Source: Anaerolineaceae bacterium UBA5365 (lineage in GTDB: Bacteria; Chloroflexota; Anaerolineae; Anaerolineales; Anaerolineaceae). From it: a DNA stretch of 22,190 nucleotides. Location: assembly GCA_002407905.1 (NCBI GenBank), contig DHPL01000064.1, positions 6,493 through 28,682 on the forward strand, read 5' to 3'. Made by a program: the position numbers and the translations under genes. The notes below the pieces were generated by a model that saw nothing but the letters and a program-made list of their open reading frames with translations, was not told the origin of the DNA and did not search any database. Of this stretch, positions 4,976 through 22,190 are shown piece after piece; position 1 is the first letter of the stretch, and the number at the start of each line of letters is the position of its first letter.

Positions 4976-5750
4976 GGCGCTCCCCAGGGTGAGCATCGTA
5001 ACGCCTTCCTTCAACCACGCGCGCTTTCTGGAACAGACCATGCGCTCCGTGCTGGAGCAGGATTACCCGAATATCGAATACATCGTCATTGACGGCGGCT
5101 CGCAGGACGGCAGCAGGGACCTGATTGAAGCTTACGCCCCGCAATTAGCCTATTGGCAAAGCCAGCCAGACGGCGGCCAGACAGACGCGATCAACCAGGG
5201 CTTTGCCCGGGCCACCGGCGAGATTTTGGCCTGGCTGAACAGCGATGACTACCTGCTGCCTGGCGCGGTGAGCAGGGCGGTGGCGGCCTTGCAGGCCGAG
5301 CCGGAGCTGGGCATGGTGTATGGTGACTGCCTGCTGGTCAATGCCGAAGGCAAGACCATCAAGCGCTTCCCGGCAGCTCAAACGGACTACGCCCGTCTGC
5401 GCCGGGGTTATGTGCATATTCCCCAGCAATCCAGCTTTTGGCGGGCTTCGCTCTGGGAAGCGGTGGGGCCGCTGGATCCCAGCTTCTACTTTGCCATGGA
5501 TTACGACCTGTGGACCCGCCTGGCCAGGATGGCGCCGCTGAAGTATCTGCCCGGCGAGCCCTGGGCGGCCTTCCGCCTGCACGGGGATGCCAAAAGCCTG
5601 GCGCAGGACGACCGTTGCTGGCCGGAGATGCTGCGCGTGCATTACCGCGATGGCGGCAAAAAACTGGCTGCCCTGCCCGCGAAATACCTGCTGCGCAAGC
5701 TGCTGCAGCCGCTTTTGATCGCCCGCCGGCGCAGGCAATTTAAAGCCTGA
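4968..5750 (+). CDS. Family 2 glycosyltransferase, paralogue of the upstream gene
   Basis: The 260-residue product aligns with its neighbour almost residue for residue through the catalytic domain. VSIVTPSFNH is at 8-17, DGGSQDGS at 42-49, NSDD at 91-94, and FAMDYDLWTRL near 175-185. It lacks the TPR-like tail and ends in a basic helix rich in Arg and Lys. The start is ATG 4968, with the ribosome site AAGGGAGG about 6 bases upstream; longer readings of this frame start within the upstream gene and give non-homologous residues. The 8-base overlap with the previous gene indicates co-translation. Conserved order and spacing of motifs indicate a tandem duplication followed by divergence, so the two enzymes probably add different or successive sugars in the same glycan. 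The substrate is not determinable from sequence alone. Confidence 0.85.
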   Translation: MPEALPRVSIVTPSFNHARFLEQTMRSVLEQDYPNIEYIVIDGGSQDGSRDLIEAYAPQLAYWQSQPDGGQTDAINQGFARATGEILAWLNSDDYLLPGAVSRAVAALQAEPELGMVYGDCLLVNAEGKTIKRFPAAQTDYARLRRGYVHIPQQSSFWRASLWEAVGPLDPSFYFAMDYDLWTRLARMAPLKYLPGEPWAAFRLHGDAKSLAQDDRCWPEMLRVHYRDGGKKLAALPAKYLLRKLLQPLLIARRRRQFKA

Positions 5751-6469: not shown

Positions 6470-7357
6470 ATGGCGAAGAAAGTATCCGGTTTTGAGGTTA
6501 AATCAGGCCTGGCCCAGATGTTAAAGGGCGGCGTGATCATGGACGTGGTAACGGTTGAACACGCGCGCATCGCCGAAGATGCCGGCGCGGTTGCCGTGAT
6601 GGCCCTGGAGCGCGTTCCTGCTGATATTCGCGCAACCGGCGGCGTTGCCCGCATGAGCGACCCGGAACTGATTTTGAAGATCATGGAAGCCGTATCCATC
6701 CCGGTGATGGCTAAGGTACGCATTGGCCATTTTGTTGAAGCGCAGATACTGGAAGCCCTGGGCGTGGATTACATTGACGAATCCGAGGTGCTCACCCCGG
6801 CAGACGAGGCTTTTCACATCAACAAACATGCCTTCAAGGTGCCCTTTGTTTGCGGCTGCCGCAACCTGGGCGAGGCCATGCGCCGCATCGGCGAAGGCGC
6901 GGCGATGATGCGCACCAAGGGCGAGCCAGGAACCGGCGATGTGGTTGAAGCCGTGCGCCATGCCCGCCAGGTCTACGGCGAGATCCGCCGGCTGCAGAAC
7001 ATTCCCGAAGAGGAAGTGATGACCTTTGCCAAGGAAATCGGCGCCCCGTACGAGCTCTGCTTACAGGTACGTGAAACAGGCAGCCTGCCTGTGGTGAACT
7101 TTGCCGCTGGCGGCATTGCCACCCCGGCTGATGCTGCGCTGATGATGCAGCTTGGCGTGGACGGCATCTTTGTGGGCTCCGGCATTTTCAAGAGCGGCGA
7201 TCCCGCCAAGCGTGCCGCGGCGGTGGTCAAGGCCACCACGCATTACAAGGACGCGAAGATCCTGGCTGAAGTCAGCCGCAACCTGGGCGAGCCGATGGTC
7301 GGCCGCACCGTAGACAGCCTGGACGAGATCGAGAAAATGGCTGGCCGCGGTTGGTAG
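6470..7357 (+). CDS. pdxS: Pyridoxal 5'-phosphate synthase, synthase subunit PdxS
   Basis: PdxS builds pyridoxal 5'-phosphate from ribose 5-phosphate, glyceraldehyde 3-phosphate and ammonia supplied by PdxT, in a cytoplasmic dodecameric (beta/alpha)8-barrel complex. The 295-residue sequence is full length and highly conserved. Asp25, Lys82 (in VMAKVRIGH) and Lys150 (in [12 protein letters not shown]) correspond to the catalytic Asp and the two Schiff-base lysines of characterised PdxS, offset by one from Bacillus numbering. The phosphate-binding [12 protein letters not shown] is near 234-245. ATG 6470 is preceded by AGGAG. pdxT starts 4 bases after its stop, the standard arrangement, which supports assembly of the two subunits. 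The deoxyxylulose-independent route to vitamin B6 is therefore present in this organism. Confidence 0.98.
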
Positions 7358-9073: not shown

Positions 9074-10792
9074 ATGATGACGAACAGACAACGCATTACC
9101 GATGATTTGGATGCGATGCTTGCTGTCTTCCCGCCGGAGCTTGCCCAGGCGGTCCAATCCAAGGACCATTTTGACCAACTTGTTGAAGTCATTTTAGACC
9201 TGGGCAGACAACCCAGCGCACGTTTTTTTGACCAGGAGCTCATTTTGTTGGAGCGGCCGGTCACCATGCAAGACATCAATTACATCGTTGAACGCATCGG
9301 CGATTTTGACGCAGACAACCGCGCGGGCATGGAAAGCACCCTGCACCGCATTTCGGCCATCCGCAACCGCAGGGGCCACATTGTGGGCCTGACTTGTCGC
9401 ATCGGCCGGGCGGTTTTTGGCACCATTGATATCATCAACGACCTGGTGAGCAGCAATGAATCAATTTTGATTTTGGGCAAACCAGGCGTGGGCAAGACCA
9501 CCATGCTGCGCGAAGCCGCCCACATTTTGGCGGAGAGCAAACGCGTGGTGATCGTGGATACCAGCAATGAGATCGGCGGCGATGGCGACGTGCCGCACCC
9601 GGCCGTGGGGAAAGCCCGGCGGATGCAGGTGCCGATGCCTTCGCTGCAGCACGAAGTGATGATCGAGGCGGTGGAGAATCACAACCCGGAAGTGATCGTG
9701 ATCGATGAGATCGGCCGGGAGCTTGAAGCCCAGGCTGCCCGCACCATCGCGGAACGCGGCGTGCAGTTGATCGGCACCGCGCACGGTATTGCCCTGGAGA
9801 ACCTGCTGCTCAACCCCACCCTCTCGGATTTGGTGGGGGGGATTGAGTCGGTAACACTTTCGGATGATGAAGCCCGGCGGCGCGGGACGCAAAAAACCGT
9901 GCTTGAGCGCCGTTCGCCTCCGACCTTCACCGTGATGGTGGAGATGCTGGAGCGCGACCGTGTGGCCGTGCACCGCGACGTGGCTGCTGCCGTGGACGCA
10001 ATTTTGCGCGGCTACCCCATTCCGCCCGAAGAGCGCTATTGGGACGATAAGGGCAAGATCCATTACATCAAAGCCACGCCTACCTCCGCCCCAACTGCTG
10101 CCCAGAGCCTGCGCCGCGGCAGCAATATGGAGAAGGCACCCTTCCAGCGCGACCGCAACCTGAACGAAAAGCGCGGCCCGCGGCGGGGCCAACCAGCAGA
10201 CCGGGGCAGTGCGGCCTCCTATGGCGGGAATGGTTCCGGGGAGGCAGACGCCCGGCCTTTTTTCGCTGAAGGCGCCCCTTTTCAGGGCAGCGCGGACGAA
10301 GACTACTTTGGCGCAGAGATCGCGGCGGGTGAACAAATTAAAAACGTGTACGCCTATGGCGTCGCGCGCAACCGCCTGCTGCAGGTGATCCGCAACATGG
10401 GCGTGCCTGCCCGCATCGTGCGCACCCCTGAAGAGGCCGACCTTTTCGTGACCCAACGGCGCTATTACCGCGAACGGCTGCAGCCCGTGGTGGACGCTGA
10501 AGAACGGGGAATCCCGATCTTTGTGATCAAAAGCAGCAGCGGCGGGCAAATTGAGCAGTTCCTGGCTGACGCTTTTTCGATGCGCGGCCCTCGCCGGGGC
10601 AACCAGGAGGAGGCCATACGCCACGCGACCCTGGCCATAGACCTGATACAATCGGGAGAGAAGTATGTGAACCTGCCTCCCGCTGATGCGCAAACACGGC
10701 GCCTGCAACACGGCATGGCGCAAAAGGCTGAGTTGGTTTCACAATCCTATGGGAAGGAGCCCAACCGCTACGTGCGCATCTTTAGGGATTAG
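9074..10792 (+). CDS. SpoIIIAA/Ycf45-like AAA ATPase with C-terminal R3H domain
   Basis: The 572-residue protein has three parts. Residues about 20-330 form a SpoIIIAA-like P-loop ATPase, with Walker A GKPGVGKTT at 135-143, Walker B EVIVIDEIG at 206-214, and a GTAHG sensor-type motif near 234-238. Residues about 335-410 are a low-complexity, Gly/Arg/Ser-rich linker. Residues about 420-572 contain a second conserved region (YAYGVARNRLLQVIRNMGVP) and an R3H single-stranded nucleic-acid-binding motif, R542-x3-H546, before a C-terminal YVRIF. Cyanobacteria and algal plastids have similar proteins (Ycf45), also of unknown role. It is the first gene of a tight run, with tmk starting 2 bases after its stop. 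A nucleic-acid-dependent ATPase is the safe statement; a link to DNA metabolism through tmk is only suggestive. Confidence 0.85.
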   Translation: MMTNRQRITDDLDAMLAVFPPELAQAVQSKDHFDQLVEVILDLGRQPSARFFDQELILLERPVTMQDINYIVERIGDFDADNRAGMESTLHRISAIRNRRGHIVGLTCRIGRAVFGTIDIINDLVSSNESILILGKPGVGKTTMLREAAHILAESKRVVIVDTSNEIGGDGDVPHPAVGKARRMQVPMPSLQHEVMIEAVENHNPEVIVIDEIGRELEAQAARTIAERGVQLIGTAHGIALENLLLNPTLSDLVGGIESVTLSDDEARRRGTQKTVLERRSPPTFTVMVEMLERDRVAVHRDVAAAVDAILRGYPIPPEERYWDDKGKIHYIKATPTSAPTAAQSLRRGSNMEKAPFQRDRNLNEKRGPRRGQPADRGSAASYGGNGSGEADARPFFAEGAPFQGSADEDYFGAEIAAGEQIKNVYAYGVARNRLLQVIRNMGVPARIVRTPEEADLFVTQRRYYRERLQPVVDAEERGIPIFVIKSSSGGQIEQFLADAFSMRGPRRGNQEEAIRHATLAIDLIQSGEKYVNLPPADAQTRRLQHGMAQKAELVSQSYGKEPNRYVRIFRD

Positions 10793-11443: not shown

Positions 11444-12805
11444 ATGAAAAAGCTGTATTCAAGCCTGATTATTGTGCTCATCGCGGGCCTGCTCCTGGCG
11501 GCCTGTAAGGTTAATGCCCCCACACCGCCCCCCGCGACGCCCACGGAAAGCGCGGCTGCTCCAGCGGCGGATGAGACGCAAATGGTCGCTCCTGCCGAGG
11601 AAACGCCTGAGGCTGGCACGCCTTTGCCCACCATCGAACTGCCGCCAACGCCCACCCCGGATACGCGCCTCTTCGATGAAAACAATCGCATGATCTGCAC
11701 GGTTTACGAACCCATGTTCCCGCCACTCACCCCTGAGGAAAAAGAGGCGATGGGCGATGTGGGCGAAGTGAATGAGAACGACCACGTCTGGGGCAAGCCG
11801 GATGCCGCTTTGACCATCCTGGAATACAGCGATTTTCAATGCCCGGCTTGTAAGGCCTTTTATGATGAATACGAGAAGCTGGCAGCCGCCTTCCCCGATG
11901 ATGTGCGCCTGGCTTTCCGCAACTTCCCCCTGGTATCCATTCACCCCAACGCCACCATGGCTGCCCAGGCTGCCGAGGCGGCTGCCCTGCAGGGCAAGTA
12001 CTGGGAGATGTACCACGTGCTTTTCTCCAAACAGAGCGATTGGGCCGGCCTGGAGGCTGAAGCTTTGATCACCTGGCTGGAAAAAGAAGCCGCGGACCTG
12101 GGCCTGGAGCCTAAATTCAATGAGGACCTGGTAAGCCAGGCGATCGTGGACAAGGTAAAGAACGAAACGGATGAAGCCGTTGCTGTGGGCCTGAACCAAA
12201 CCCCCACGGTCTTTATCAACGGCCGCCATTGGCCCTATAACTGGGACTTAAGCACCATGACCATGGTGCTGAACGTGATCAAGGCTGAGGAAAAGCTTGA
12301 GACCGAGTGCCCGGCCTTTGAGATCGACCAAAATAAAAGCTACACCGCCACGATCAAGATGGATAAGGGCGAGATTGTGATGGAACTCTTCCCCAAGGAA
12401 GCCCCGCAGGCGGTCAACTCCTTTGTTTACCTGGCGCGCAAGGGCTTTTACGATGGCGTAACCTTCCACCGCGTGATGCACGACTTTGTTGCCCAGGCCG
12501 GCGACCCCAGCGGTACCGGCATCAGCGGCAGCGGCTTTGAATTCCGCGAGGAAGTTGTGGAAGGCTTGACCTTTGACAAGGAAGGCGTAGTGGGCGTGGC
12601 CAAGACCAATATGCCCAATAGCAGCGGCTCGCAGTTTTTCATCACTTACGGCCCAACCCCGCAGCTGGATGGCGGCTATACCATTTTTGGTCAGGTGATA
12701 AGCGGTATGGACGTGGTGAAACAGATCACCGAACGCGACCCGCAAACCAATCCGGATGCGCCTGAGGGCGATAAGATCATCACGATCACGATCGAAGAGA
12801 AATAA
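11444..12805 (+). CDS. Lipoprotein fusing a DsbA-like thioredoxin domain to a cyclophilin PPIase
   Basis: The 453-residue protein starts with a lipoprotein signal peptide (KK, hydrophobic core, lipobox LLAAC with Cys21). A Pro/Thr/Ala-rich linker to about residue 75 follows. Residues about 110-282 form a DsbA/DsbG-type thioredoxin fold, with the redox motif C133-P-A-C136 in DFQCPAC and the cis-proline in QTPTVFING (Pro254). Residues about 297-453 form a cyclophilin, with FHRVMHDFVAQAGDPSGTG (341-359, including the catalytic-type Phe-His-Arg), GSQFFI near 395-400, and LDGGYTIFGQV. The Trp typical of the human cyclophilin A drug site is absent. Cys85 and Cys289 flank the thioredoxin domain and may form a structural disulfide. 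It probably acts outside the membrane as a combined disulfide and prolyl-isomerase folding catalyst; the neighbours are membrane proteases. The combination is inferred from sequence, not activity. Confidence 0.9.
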   Translation: MKKLYSSLIIVLIAGLLLAACKVNAPTPPPATPTESAAAPAADETQMVAPAEETPEAGTPLPTIELPPTPTPDTRLFDENNRMICTVYEPMFPPLTPEEKEAMGDVGEVNENDHVWGKPDAALTILEYSDFQCPACKAFYDEYEKLAAAFPDDVRLAFRNFPLVSIHPNATMAAQAAEAAALQGKYWEMYHVLFSKQSDWAGLEAEALITWLEKEAADLGLEPKFNEDLVSQAIVDKVKNETDEAVAVGLNQTPTVFINGRHWPYNWDLSTMTMVLNVIKAEEKLETECPAFEIDQNKSYTATIKMDKGEIVMELFPKEAPQAVNSFVYLARKGFYDGVTFHRVMHDFVAQAGDPSGTGISGSGFEFREEVVEGLTFDKEGVVGVAKTNMPNSSGSQFFITYGPTPQLDGGYTIFGQVISGMDVVKQITERDPQTNPDAPEGDKIITITIEEK

Positions 12806-18514: not shown

Positions 18515-18634
18515 ATGAGAATGGACATCAGGGATGCATTTCCAGGCTCCTGTGCAACGTTTTTGGCTCTCCAAGCGACTATTAAGCAAGAACCGGTCCT
18601 TAGGGAGATCTATGGAGACAAGCATCGAGACTAA
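18515..18634 (+). CDS. Possible 39-codon leader ORF before the sigma-factor gene
   Basis: An ATG at 18515 (second in-frame ATG at 18521) follows AAGGAG at 18505-18510 and opens 39 codons beginning MRMDIRDAFPGS. It ends at a TAA (18632-18634) that overlaps the start of the sigma-factor gene by 23 bases in another frame. The ribosome site is among the better ones in the region, but spacing to the first ATG is only 4 bases. No homology is recognised. It may be a leader peptide coupling translation into the sigma gene, or chance. If transcription starts at the ECF-type promoter at 18554-18580, the ORF would lie partly upstream of the transcript and not be read. Confidence 0.3.
   Translation: MRMDIRDAFPGSCATFLALQATIKQEPVLREIYGDKHRD
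18554..18580 (+). promoter_or_regulatory. Possible ECF-sigma autoregulatory promoter
   Basis: GCAACGTTTTT (18554-18564) followed by CGACTATT (from 18576), with 17 bases between the AAC and the CGA, resembles the AAC-type -35 and CGT-type -10 boxes recognised by many ECF sigma factors. It lies just before the sigma-factor gene, where autoregulated ECF promoters usually sit. This is a pattern match by eye only. Confidence 0.4.
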
Positions 18635-19175
18635 AATGCAGGACCCCTTTGCCATAAACGCCCTGGTGGCGCGTGCTGCCGTCGACAAGCACGCTTTCAC
18701 CCAGCTTTACAGGCATTACCTGCCGCGGATCTATGGCTATGTGCTCAGCCGGGTGGGCGATGAAGCCAGCGCCGAGGACATCTGCGGACAGGTCTTTTTG
18801 GCCCTGCTGCAGAAACTACCCCAATTGCGTGATCCTCAGCGCTTCAGCGCCTGGCTTTTCAGCATCGCGCGCAACAAGTGTATGGATCACTTTCGGACGC
18901 TCAAACGGGAGCAGGCCAGGAATGCCAGCCTGGGGCACCTTTTTGCGGAGGCCTCAGCGGAAACTGACGAGCTGGACGGGCTGGAAGCTGCCTTTCAGGC
19001 CTTGCCTGAACTGGAACAGGATATTTTACGTTTACGCTTCTTGGGGGATATGCGGCTCAAGGAGATCGCGGAGGTCTTGAAGCGCTCTGAGAGCTCGGTA
19101 AAAGCACGCTATTACCGCTGCCTTGAGAAACTGCAGCTCTGCATGAGCATGGAGGATGACCATGATGGAAATTAA
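18612..19175 (+). CDS. ECF-type RNA polymerase sigma factor
   Basis: The 187-residue protein contains only the two sigma domains needed for extracytoplasmic-function factors. Region 2 (about 30-98) has LYRHYLPRIYGYVLSRVGD and AEDICGQVFLALLQKLPQLR, then FSAWLFSIARNKCMDHFR, the core-binding and -10 recognition helices. Region 4 (about 124-176) has LPELEQDILRLRFLGDMRLK and EIAEVLKRSESSVKARYYRC, the helix-turn-helix for the -35 box. I chose ATG 18612, which has GGGAG 4 bases upstream and gives the usual short N-terminus; a longer frame from 18534 adds 26 residues without homology. The next gene starts inside its end, so the pair is translationally coupled. It is expected to be held inactive by that membrane protein and released on an envelope signal. 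Confidence 0.92.
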   Translation: METSIETKMQDPFAINALVARAAVDKHAFTQLYRHYLPRIYGYVLSRVGDEASAEDICGQVFLALLQKLPQLRDPQRFSAWLFSIARNKCMDHFRTLKREQARNASLGHLFAEASAETDELDGLEAAFQALPELEQDILRLRFLGDMRLKEIAEVLKRSESSVKARYYRCLEKLQLCMSMEDDHDGN

Positions 19176-21438
19176 TACCCTTGAGGCGCAACTGCGCTCC
19201 AGGATTAACGTTTCGCAGCCGAAGGTTGCATTTCAAAACCGATTGGAAGCCCAGCTTGGGCAGGCCTGGGACGAGGCCGCTGAAGCGGAGGCAGTCCGCC
19301 CGAAACCTCGTTTGGCCTGGGCAGGATTGGCGGCATTATTGGTGCTGGGTATTCTGGTGCTGGCCGCCGGGCCGGCAGCAGTTTGGGCGCAGATCCGCGG
19401 GCTTTTGGGCTTTGTACCTGGCGTTGGGGTAGTGGACTCCAACGCGCCCCTGCGCGTGCTGGCAGAACCCGTGCGGGTGACGCGGGACGGCATCAGTCTG
19501 GAAGTTAATAGCGCCATGGTCAGCCCCGAAGTAAGTTACCTGGATTACCAGGTCTTTGGTGTGCCGGCTTCGGCGCTTGCCCCGGATGGTCAGGTGCAAA
19601 CCTGTACACAGGAGGCTTATTTGCGCCTTCCGGATGGCAGCCGCCTGCAGCGCAGAGGCCCGGCCTGGCCCGGCCTCCCCAGTGATCTGACCACGGTGAC
19701 CCTGGTGGTCCCCTGCCTGGAGGGCACCCGCGAAGGCACGGTGCCAGAGGGATGGGAGCTGAAACTGCGCCTGATCACCCCGGACGAAGCCCCTGTACAA
19801 TTGCCCCTTCTGGAAGTCATCCGCGCCACACCCACCACAGGGCCAGCTGCCGAGGCGGCAACAGACGAAGCCAATCTGGCCAATCCGGGCTGGGCCTTTG
19901 AAGTGAGCACCGTGATCGAGACCCCGCGGGGCTACATTTTGGCTGGCCCGGGCCTGCAGGGCAACTTGAGTGACCGTATTGAGATCATGCATCCCGTCAG
20001 CGTGAAGGACGCACAAGGCCGGGCTGTTCCCGCCGCGCTGCCAGCGGAATTCCCAAAGCTGCACCAGAGCGGAGCCATCCCCAACCATGCCTGGGCCATC
20101 CAGTTTGCATCGGAGGGTCTGGCTATGCCGCTGGAACTGAGCGCCGCAGTCGAGACCCAAAGAATGCAGATGATCGCGGTGGAACCAGTGCAGATAAGCC
20201 TGGATATGGATTCAGCGATCGAAGATGGGCAGGAAAGAAACTTTGACCAGGCCTTCGAACTGGGCGGAACACCGTTTCGCCTGGTGAGCATCCGGGCGGC
20301 CGCAGATGGTTACCGCTTTACGCTGGAAGCCCCCGGTGATGTGATCGACCTCGATTTGGAGGTTGAGGGGCACCCGGCTATTGGGGCCGGCGGGGGCGGC
20401 AGCGGCGGCCCAGCTGAAGGGGAGAGACATCTCATTGAGCTGAACCGGGTTTATGCCACACGCCCGATGGAATTGCAGCTGCGCCTGGTTGTTTCAGGAT
20501 ATACGCTCATGTCGGCGGCTGAAACGCGGGTGCACACCTTGAGTTGGACGCCATCTGCGGCCCACGCGCCTTATCTGCAAGCTGTTAAGCCTGCTGGCAG
20601 CGTTTGCCTGAGCCCGGATGGGCTGCAAATGGCCCTGGACACGCCATTTGCTGGGGCGGGCTGGGCGTACTTCTCGCGCAACGAAGGCGGCTCGCTGCCC
20701 AACCTCTACCGGGTTGATCTGGCGACGGGCGGGCAGAAGCTCCTGGCGGTGAACGTGGCCTGGCCGGCCATCGCTGCCTCCGGAGAGGCCCTGGCTTATC
20801 CCGGCGAGACCAGCGTGAAAGCCCTCTGGCTGGAACACCCCATGCCCTACGATCTGTCGCAGCAGGCCTTGCAAGTCAAATGGTCCCCCGATGGCCGCCA
20901 GTTGGCAGCACTGAGCATGCAAAGCAATGTACAAGACCAGCGTTTGGGGCTGATTTCAACGGACCTTAACAGCAGTTCGTACACCCAATTGCTGGATACG
21001 GGCTACGCTTACATCGCCGGGTGGATGCCGGATGGCAAAAGCGTGATCTTCCTGACTGCCGCGCTTAACCTGAATGGCTGGAAGGTGCAGCGTTACGATC
21101 TTGAGAACAAAGCGAACGAAGAGTTGTTTACCATGAATACGGGCACGATCAAGTACCTGGACCCGGAGCTTTCACCCGATGGTGAGTGGTTGGCTTACCG
21201 GGCGCTGGACAGCAGCTCGGTGCGCGTCGTGCGCCTGGACGGCAGCGAGGACCATCTGCTCGCGGAAAGTTTGCACGCCGTGGAGCTCAGTTGGGCCAGC
21301 CCGGAGCTGCTGGCGCTCAGCCTGAGCGGCATGCCCGCTGGGATGGAGCGCACCGTGCTGGTAAACATCAATACCTGCGCGGTGCAAGCCCTGCCCGAGG
21401 AATATAGCGGTACGGTGGCGGGGATCAAAATCGAGTAA
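19162..21438 (+). CDS. Single-pass membrane protein with PD40 beta-propeller end, probable anti-sigma factor
   Basis: The product has about 758 residues. A 50-residue cytoplasmic head (helical, with FQNRLEAQLGQAWDEAAEAE) is followed by one transmembrane helix (about 52-74), and everything after it should lie outside. Residues about 85-460 are beta-rich with no family I can name; they start with an Ala/Pro-rich FVPGVGVVDSN stretch and include a Gly-rich loop (GAGGGGSGGP). Residues about 470-745 contain repeats of the PD40/TolB-propeller type: CLSPDGLQMAL, KWSPDGRQLAAL, GWMPDGKSVIFL and ELSPDGEWLAYR. No HxxxCxxC zinc anti-sigma motif is present. ATG 19162 is chosen because GGAGG (19151-19155) lies 6 bases upstream; 19156 and 19165 are alternatives. 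Overlap with the ECF sigma gene and topology make it the likely anti-sigma regulator and sensor; this is inference. Confidence 0.75.
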   Translation: MMEINTLEAQLRSRINVSQPKVAFQNRLEAQLGQAWDEAAEAEAVRPKPRLAWAGLAALLVLGILVLAAGPAAVWAQIRGLLGFVPGVGVVDSNAPLRVLAEPVRVTRDGISLEVNSAMVSPEVSYLDYQVFGVPASALAPDGQVQTCTQEAYLRLPDGSRLQRRGPAWPGLPSDLTTVTLVVPCLEGTREGTVPEGWELKLRLITPDEAPVQLPLLEVIRATPTTGPAAEAATDEANLANPGWAFEVSTVIETPRGYILAGPGLQGNLSDRIEIMHPVSVKDAQGRAVPAALPAEFPKLHQSGAIPNHAWAIQFASEGLAMPLELSAAVETQRMQMIAVEPVQISLDMDSAIEDGQERNFDQAFELGGTPFRLVSIRAAADGYRFTLEAPGDVIDLDLEVEGHPAIGAGGGGSGGPAEGERHLIELNRVYATRPMELQLRLVVSGYTLMSAAETRVHTLSWTPSAAHAPYLQAVKPAGSVCLSPDGLQMALDTPFAGAGWAYFSRNEGGSLPNLYRVDLATGGQKLLAVNVAWPAIAASGEALAYPGETSVKALWLEHPMPYDLSQQALQVKWSPDGRQLAALSMQSNVQDQRLGLISTDLNSSSYTQLLDTGYAYIAGWMPDGKSVIFLTAALNLNGWKVQRYDLENKANEELFTMNTGTIKYLDPELSPDGEWLAYRALDSSSVRVVRLDGSEDHLLAESLHAVELSWASPELLALSLSGMPAGMERTVLVNINTCAVQALPEEYSGTVAGIKIE

Positions 21439-21539: not shown

Positions 21540-22190
21540 TCAGGCGTTGCGTGCCTGGGCTTCGGCCTGGTACTTTTTGTAGGTCATGGTTTTCATGATC
21601 TCTGCGGCGATCGAAGGCAGGAAGATAAGCGGCAGGATCTCCAGCCAGTGCACCGGTTCGATAGGCAAAGTGCCGAAGATGTTCTGCAGGAAGGGCACGT
21701 AAACCACCAGAATAATCAGGGCCAGCGAGACCAGAACTGCCAGGTTCATATTCTTGTTGGTAAAGATGCCGATCTTGGTGAGCGGGTAGTACTCGCTGCG
21801 GGCGGTGTAGGCACGCAGGAGCTCGCTCATGGAAAGGGTCACAAAGGCATAAGTCTCGCTGAGGTGAACTGCCTCGGGCGCCGCGCCGCGCAATGCCCCG
21901 CCGCCCAGGAAGAAGGCGCCCAGGGTGGCGAGCGTGATGGCCACCGTCTGGACGATGATGCCGCGCATCATGTAACTATTGATAATTGGTTCGTCGGTTG
22001 GGCGGGGCGGGTGGTCCATGATGTCCGGGTCGCCTTTTTCGGAGCCCAGGGCCAGGGCCGGAGCGCCATCGGTCACCAGGTTCAGCCAGAGCAGCTGGAT
22101 GGGCGAGAGCGGCGTATTCCAACCGAAGACCGTGGCCAGGAAGATGATCATGATCTCCGCCACGTTGCAGCTCACCAGGTAGTAAACGAA
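21540..22190 (-). CDS. SERCA-type Ca2+-transporting P-type ATPase, C-terminal part
   Basis: The gene runs off the right edge; 216 residues of the C-terminal membrane region are visible, open to base 22190. They begin in helix M5 with FVYYLVSCNVAEIM, where Asn and Glu match the Ca2+ ligands of SERCA (N768, E771). M6 follows with LLWLNLVTDGAPALALG, whose Asn, Thr and Asp match N796, T799 and D800. DPDIMDHPPRP is the conserved cytosolic loop. Further helices include VTLSMSELLRAYTARSEYYP, with a Glu at about the place of SERCA E908. The end, LPLIFLPSIAAEIMK, is the usual last helix. All ligand positions favour Ca2+ export over Na+/K+ or H+ transport. The catalytic P and N domains lie outside the window. 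It is a single gene with its own terminator, convergent with the anti-sigma gene. Confidence 0.92.
   Translation of the reverse strand, partial: FVYYLVSCNVAEIMIIFLATVFGWNTPLSPIQLLWLNLVTDGAPALALGSEKGDPDIMDHPPRPTDEPIINSYMMRGIIVQTVAITLATLGAFFLGGGALRGAAPEAVHLSETYAFVTLSMSELLRAYTARSEYYPLTKIGIFTNKNMNLAVLVSLALIILVVYVPFLQNIFGTLPIEPVHWLEILPLIFLPSIAAEIMKTMTYKKYQAEAQARNA

Follow-up and report, generated by a model that had tools for sequence, protein, structure and literature searches.

A probable membrane anti-sigma factor with a modular outer sensor, encoded in overlap with an ECF sigma factor gene in an Anaerolineaceae bacterium

As described in PMC6066255, RsiV is the anti-sigma factor of sigma-V in Bacillus subtilis, and its DUF4179 segment holds a signal peptidase site that is shielded by amphipathic helices until lysozyme binds. 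The same source presents DUF4179 as largely confined to Firmicutes, with three Chloroflexi sequences as of 2018, and names BAS1627 as an anti-sigma factor with DUF4179, PDB entry 3fbq being its ectodomain (PMC6066255). RsgI of Clostridium thermocellum occurs as several paralogues per genome that sense different substrates, its membrane helix being cut by RseP (PMC12203970), and RsbN of Streptomyces is described as a membrane-anchored inhibitor (PMC8103513). Sigma factors of the ECF57 group are described as carrying WD40-like C-terminal extensions (PMC8999054).

Here, we analyze a gene pair in a 22,190-nucleotide stretch of an Anaerolineaceae genome, called the window throughout. The best-supported reading is that the second gene encodes an RsiV-like membrane anti-sigma factor with a modular outer sensor. 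On the present analysis, the probability that this protein is the anti-sigma factor of the overlapping ECF sigma factor, released by an RsiV-like signal-peptidase switch, is put at roughly 0.6. The features of the locus, in window coordinates, are:

18553..18585, + strand: weak promoter candidate for the pair, TGCAACGTTTTT ... GCGACTATTAA (highest-scoring position under a two-block model built from relatives)
18602..18607, + strand: ribosome-binding-like AGGGAG preceding the sigma ATG at 18612 (direct sequence reading)
18612..19175, + strand: ECF sigma factor gene, 187 aa, regions 2 and 4 (Pfam and TIGRFAM-type profile matches)
19162..19175, + strand: overlap of the sigma and membrane protein genes, 14 bases (open reading frame coordinates)
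19162..21438, + strand: membrane protein gene, likely anti-sigma factor, 758 aa (open reading frame, family-wide sigma adjacency, AF2 model)
19162..19311, + strand: head, residues 1-50, two predicted helices, predicted cytoplasmic (AF2 model)
19315..19368, + strand: predicted membrane helix, residues 52-69 (AF2 model, hydrophobic alignment columns)
19381..19392, + strand: V-W-A-Q, residues 74-77, putative signal-peptidase-like site by the membrane helix
19405..19821, + strand: first beta domain, residues 82-220 (structure models)
19408..19428, + strand: conserved GFVPGVG, residues 83-89 (family alignment)
19909..20547, + strand: second beta domain, residues 250-462 (structure models; top, weak profile match to 3fbq)
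20626..21435, + strand: C-terminal TolB-like beta-propeller, residues 489-758

The sigma gene starts at ATG 18612, with an alternative in-frame ATG at 18534, and stops at 19175. Its product is an ECF sigma factor by sigma-70 regions 2 and 4 with family cut-offs passed, matching Sigma70_r2 (PF04542, 1.4e-18), r4_2 (PF08281, 1.4e-11) and TIGR02937 (99.0 bits, cut-off 42.9). The top-scoring model is the BldN family (TIGR02952), yet the score is under its cut-off, and the best PDB match is 6dxo_A (1.4e-17, residues 21-105), which we take to be the BldN-RsbN entry. The membrane protein gene runs from ATG 19162 (other candidates at 19156 and 19165) to the stop at 21438. Open reading frame positions and the overlap of the two genes, as reported in an earlier note on this DNA, are thus confirmed. 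Elsewhere in the window, the + strand encodes a PdxS pyridoxal phosphate synthase subunit (6470-7357, cut-off passed), a 572-aa frame with a stretch resembling stage III sporulation protein AA (9074-10789; TIGR02858 2e-19, below cut-off) and a single frame (11444-12802) in which a thioredoxin-like (seleno)lipoprotein-type part (NF041057, 8e-24, below cut-off) stands together with one of cyclophilin-type peptidyl-prolyl isomerase character. The C-terminal part of a cation-transporting ATPase (21540-22190, - strand) faces the membrane protein gene.

The pairing recurs widely. Defining a family member as head, helix and beta module, 152 loci gave 139 distinct members, and for 131 of these an ECF sigma gene lies on the same strand no more than 200 bases upstream. 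Homologues regularly without a neighboring sigma gene, which the earlier note had named among the findings that would refute its reading, were thus not what was found. As a control, the 318 other open frames of at least 300 codons in loci L081-L152 were checked, and none has an upstream sigma gene, a figure that is partly biased as the loci are centered on pairs. The eight misses comprise three members that start at or near a contig end (L052, L128, L133), two with a sigma gene just before the frame where the module match begins late in the frame (L076, L152), a second frame behind a member with its own sigma gene (L145, 7438), a member with an internal stop and no sigma gene (L057), and a family fragment titled as Saprospiraceae that adjoins unrelated reverse-strand DNA (L142, 5620-6801), on a contig that is perhaps chimeric or mis-binned. 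At L072, the sigma gene is divergent and was overlooked by the first profile.

Matches to the family occur in 38 of the 61 genomes searched, the window's own included, in some cases to the propeller part only. The closest relative, P0002, is 54% identical. Scanning named genomes yielded 72 loci, almost all titled as Anaerolineae or Chloroflexi metagenome-assembled genomes; those under other titles (L088, Bacteroidota; L123, Caldisericales; L142, Saprospiraceae) may be mis-binned. The window's own genome has 14 PF04542 matches and five pairs, in each of which the membrane protein gene overlaps an ECF sigma gene directly upstream. The four paralogues of the window protein lie on contigs C22 (two), C46 (471 aa) and C28 (839 aa); on C22, two sigma/membrane-protein pairs stand in tandem (L007 4657-10594, - strand). 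Since the pair recurs five times in its own genome and in 131 of 139 relatives, the arrangement is not due to chance.

The AF2 model of the membrane protein (53 sequences, mean pLDDT 83, pTM 0.70) places head helices at residues 3-14 and 22-42, a helix at 52-69, a further helix at 71-80, beta structure at 82-220 and 250-462, and then the propeller. Sequence set A4 combined 45 of 76 propeller-bearing proteins (L081 and up, 690-830 aa), seven database proteins and the window protein. The single predicted membrane helix behind a small head, proposed in the earlier note, is present in the model as helix 52-69. Fold searches with residues 1-470 gave no strong match; 3fbq ranks first in the PDB for the profile of this stretch, spanning residues 245-452, at a non-significant E-value of 0.16.

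The head is likely to be the sigma-binding part of the membrane protein, judging from sequence comparisons. That of the window protein has neither Cys nor His. The HxxxCxxC motif occurs in 0 of 121 family heads, and any Cys in two, which sets the heads apart from the zinc type of class I anti-sigma domain. The absence of this motif had been remarked on earlier as a departure from classical anti-sigma factors; the absence stands, but it is not unusual, as PMC7406223 puts the share of class I anti-sigma domains without the zinc motif at about 44%. No anti-sigma domain family is among the seven Pfam families listed at E <=1 for the window protein, nor among the best 25 of 33 Pfam families for 53 members; the heads are short and divergent.

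Comparison of heads with sigma factors was based on 115 of the 131 pairs, those with a module cut at an end or a masked sigma factor being dropped. Unsupervised clustering (k=2, the number of sigma clusters being fixed by the analyst) divided the sigma factors into 100 and 15 and the heads into 100 and 15, with identical membership in 115/115 pairs; the window sigma factor sits in the class of 100. In the minor class, the nearest neighbor lies within the class for 15/15 heads versus 6/15 ectodomains. Across the 115 pairs, the rank correlation of distances is 0.635 for sigma and head and 0.259 for sigma and ectodomain, and the partial correlations are 0.603 versus 0.067. Re-pairing within genomes reached the observed 0.635 in 0 of 499 trials (null mean 0.551, maximum 0.617). 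Inside the main class (n=100), the head does no better than the ectodomain (0.456 versus 0.494; partial 0.272 versus 0.340), which means that the signal specific to the head comes from the two-class split. As far as sequence comparison goes, each of the two sigma types is matched by its own head type with an ectodomain common to both, at class level and not as pair-by-pair co-evolution.

These results bear on whether the membrane protein is an inhibitor at all. It could instead be a surface protein transcribed along with the sigma factor, or act with that factor in a positive sense, as its target or activator; gene neighborship alone fits an operon partner equally well, and the lack of an anti-sigma domain family among the Pfam families listed is in keeping with this. 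Against it, head class tracks sigma class in every pair though the ectodomain is common to both classes, and anti-sigma genes usually lie immediately downstream of a sigma gene. We consider such a non-inhibitory role improbable. The earlier note's reading of the genes as a sigma factor and its membrane anti-sigma factor is therefore retained on the strength of adjacency and class tracking, with three changes to the reading.

How the anti-sigma factor might be released is suggested by the segment directly behind the membrane helix, where the alignment of 121 members shows V-x-A followed by GYxPGxG. Conservation, counted over 121 of 139 modules, is 98% for P86, 98% for G89, 89% for G87, 85% for V74 and 83% for G83. 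The pattern [AVS]xA lies between the helix and GY in 114/121 members versus 31% of shuffled segments, in a tally whose residue count runs two below the protein numbering; as the shuffled figure shows, chance alone may also place VxA-like sites next to a membrane helix. The hydrophobic moment exceeds the mean of a member's own shuffles in 113/121 cases, and helix 71-80 of the AF2 model is a single juxtamembrane helix of low confidence. The earlier note had called the beta-rich part unassigned. This is not wholly so, as DUF4179 matches the helix and juxtamembrane stretch in 14 of 53 members at E <=0.1 (best 6.2e-7). The Pfam cut-off of 30.1 is exceeded in two of 61 genomes (G029:C300, 31.2 bits; G037:C76, 30.2 bits, the latter counted with neighbors in the frame); for the window protein, no DUF4179 match is listed at E <=1 and the cut-off is not reached. 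Genes for signal peptidase I (2.2e-43) and for M50 site-2-type proteases (best 9.9e-45) are present in the window's genome, as they are in most control genomes.

The protein could also be an anti-sigma factor that is freed by another site-1 protease, or by a conformational change without proteolysis. Other membrane anti-sigma factors rely on other site-1 proteases, [AVS]xA is missing at the juxtamembrane place in 7/121 members, and the window protein falls below DUF4179 detection. On the other side, the VxA site and GYxPGxG are among the best conserved N-terminal positions, and the DUF4179 relatives include RsiV, which is described as cut by signal peptidase (PMC6066255). On balance, release by one of these other routes seems unlikely.

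The outer part of the protein is modular. PD40 scores 21.8 bits on the whole membrane protein (Pfam cut-off 20.9) with no single stretch passing alone, and SPDG motifs are found at residues 484, 575 and 671 with PDG at 623, which bears out the PD40-type repeats reported earlier. In the structure model, the C-terminal propeller has a TolB-type fold. Propellers were called in complete proteins only (n=110), by a match at E <=1e-5 to a nine-member profile: 76 have one, a fraction biased by the query itself being propeller-bearing, and 65 of these 76 are 730-782 aa long. None was detected in the other 34, of which 26 are 456-540 aa. The propeller thus appears optional, and the beta module with the juxtamembrane motif forms the core. 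The earlier proposal of a propeller-type sensor accordingly holds for the modeled fold, but not as a fixed part of the layout. In one protein (L032 1270-3498), a portion of the beta module is apparently matched twice, as if repeated in place of the propeller.

The TolB-like fold raises the prospect that the protein is a TolB component of Tol-Pal type that stands beside a sigma gene by accident. This is extremely improbable, as sigma genes recur beside relatives in which no propeller was detected, adjacency being 131/139 for the family as a whole, and the TIGR02800 TolB model gives 23.6 bits against a cut-off of 343.15.

Sequences upstream of the sigma genes also divide by class. TGTCCC occurs in 50 of 126 upstream stretches against an expected 6.1, and CCTTTT in 63 of 126 against 12.2. 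TGTCCC is present in 50/100 main-class and 0/15 minor-class stretches, and CCAACCTTT in 14/15 minor-class versus 0/100 main-class stretches. A two-block motif, tTTGTCCCTTTT ... cCGATTTA, built on 96 of the 100 main-class sequences, exceeds the 95% null in 89/96, the model having been trained on the same sequences, and its median position is 78 bases ahead of the estimated start. The two class-specific motifs, TTGTCCCTTTT...CGATTTA and CCAACCTTTT...GTATA, are ECF-like in form and lie upstream of sigma genes in relatives, for example at L009 about 5553-5583. The split of promoter motifs with sigma class suggests that the sigma factors autoregulate their own operons. The window candidate scores 6.3, below the null 95% of 10.5, and has no second copy in its own genome with up to three mismatches allowed. 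A strict promoter pattern gave 12 sites in 61 genomes, six of them before sigma genes, versus 25 for a reversed control. We tentatively propose that Anaerolineae carry a surface-sensing system with one exchangeable ectodomain, made of beta domains with or without a TolB-like propeller, on two heads, each with its own ECF class and promoter and both sharing a VxA/GYxPGxG signal-peptidase switch; it would follow the logic of RsiV outside the Firmicutes, with a propeller as the receptor. This is possible rather than probable.

For the anti-sigma factor with an RsiV-like switch, we infer a course that takes in topology, sigma binding, inhibition, ligand, cleavage, release and autoregulation. The small head would tether the sigma factor to the membrane, with the outer beta domains and the propeller sensing a ligand; the cell-wall or surface ligands suggested in the earlier note are a guess. 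If RsiV is taken as the model, the short juxtamembrane helix would come away from the membrane once ligand is bound, uncovering the V-W-A site for signal peptidase, with a predicted cut after residue 76. Cleavage inside the membrane by a site-2 protease would follow. The head fragment would then be broken down, and the sigma factor, once free, would transcribe its own operon as well as other genes.

If correct, this would provide a defined outside-to-inside signaling module for mostly uncultured bacteria, present in five copies in the window's own genome, and would place the RsiV signal-peptidase switch in another phylum and pair it with a propeller as receptor. The cut position and the promoter motifs that would report module activity are predicted, and the class-specific motifs offer a ready handle for regulon searches. 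Because the genes are neighbors in almost every relative examined, surface signaling of this kind in these little-studied bacteria would become directly testable.

Among described systems, RsiV has a similar layout, with a head, one membrane helix and a sensor part outside (PMC6066255), and relatives of the window protein have a DUF4179-type juxtamembrane segment with apparent amphipathic character and a putative signal-peptidase-like site. Two juxtamembrane helices are proposed for RsiV in that source, whereas one is modeled here, with low confidence (PMC6066255). Unlike RsiV, the window protein has no lysozyme-sensing domain family among its listed matches and no detected DUF4179, and its sigma factor scores best with the BldN-family model rather than SigV. 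The protein would be RsiV-like in its working, but falls under the DUF4179 threshold and is therefore set down as a variant. BAS1627 is likewise a sigma-linked membrane protein with DUF4179, the match of 3fbq to the window protein being non-significant. The propeller fold is common to TolB and the window protein, which scores under the TolB model cut-off. RsgI resembles the window family in having several paralogues in one genome; RsgI factors control sigma-I and are not known to control ECF sigma factors. A likeness to RsbN-BldN lies in 6dxo_A as the best PDB match of the window sigma factor. In ECF57, propeller-type repeats are within the sigma factor itself, whereas at this locus they are carried by a separate membrane partner.
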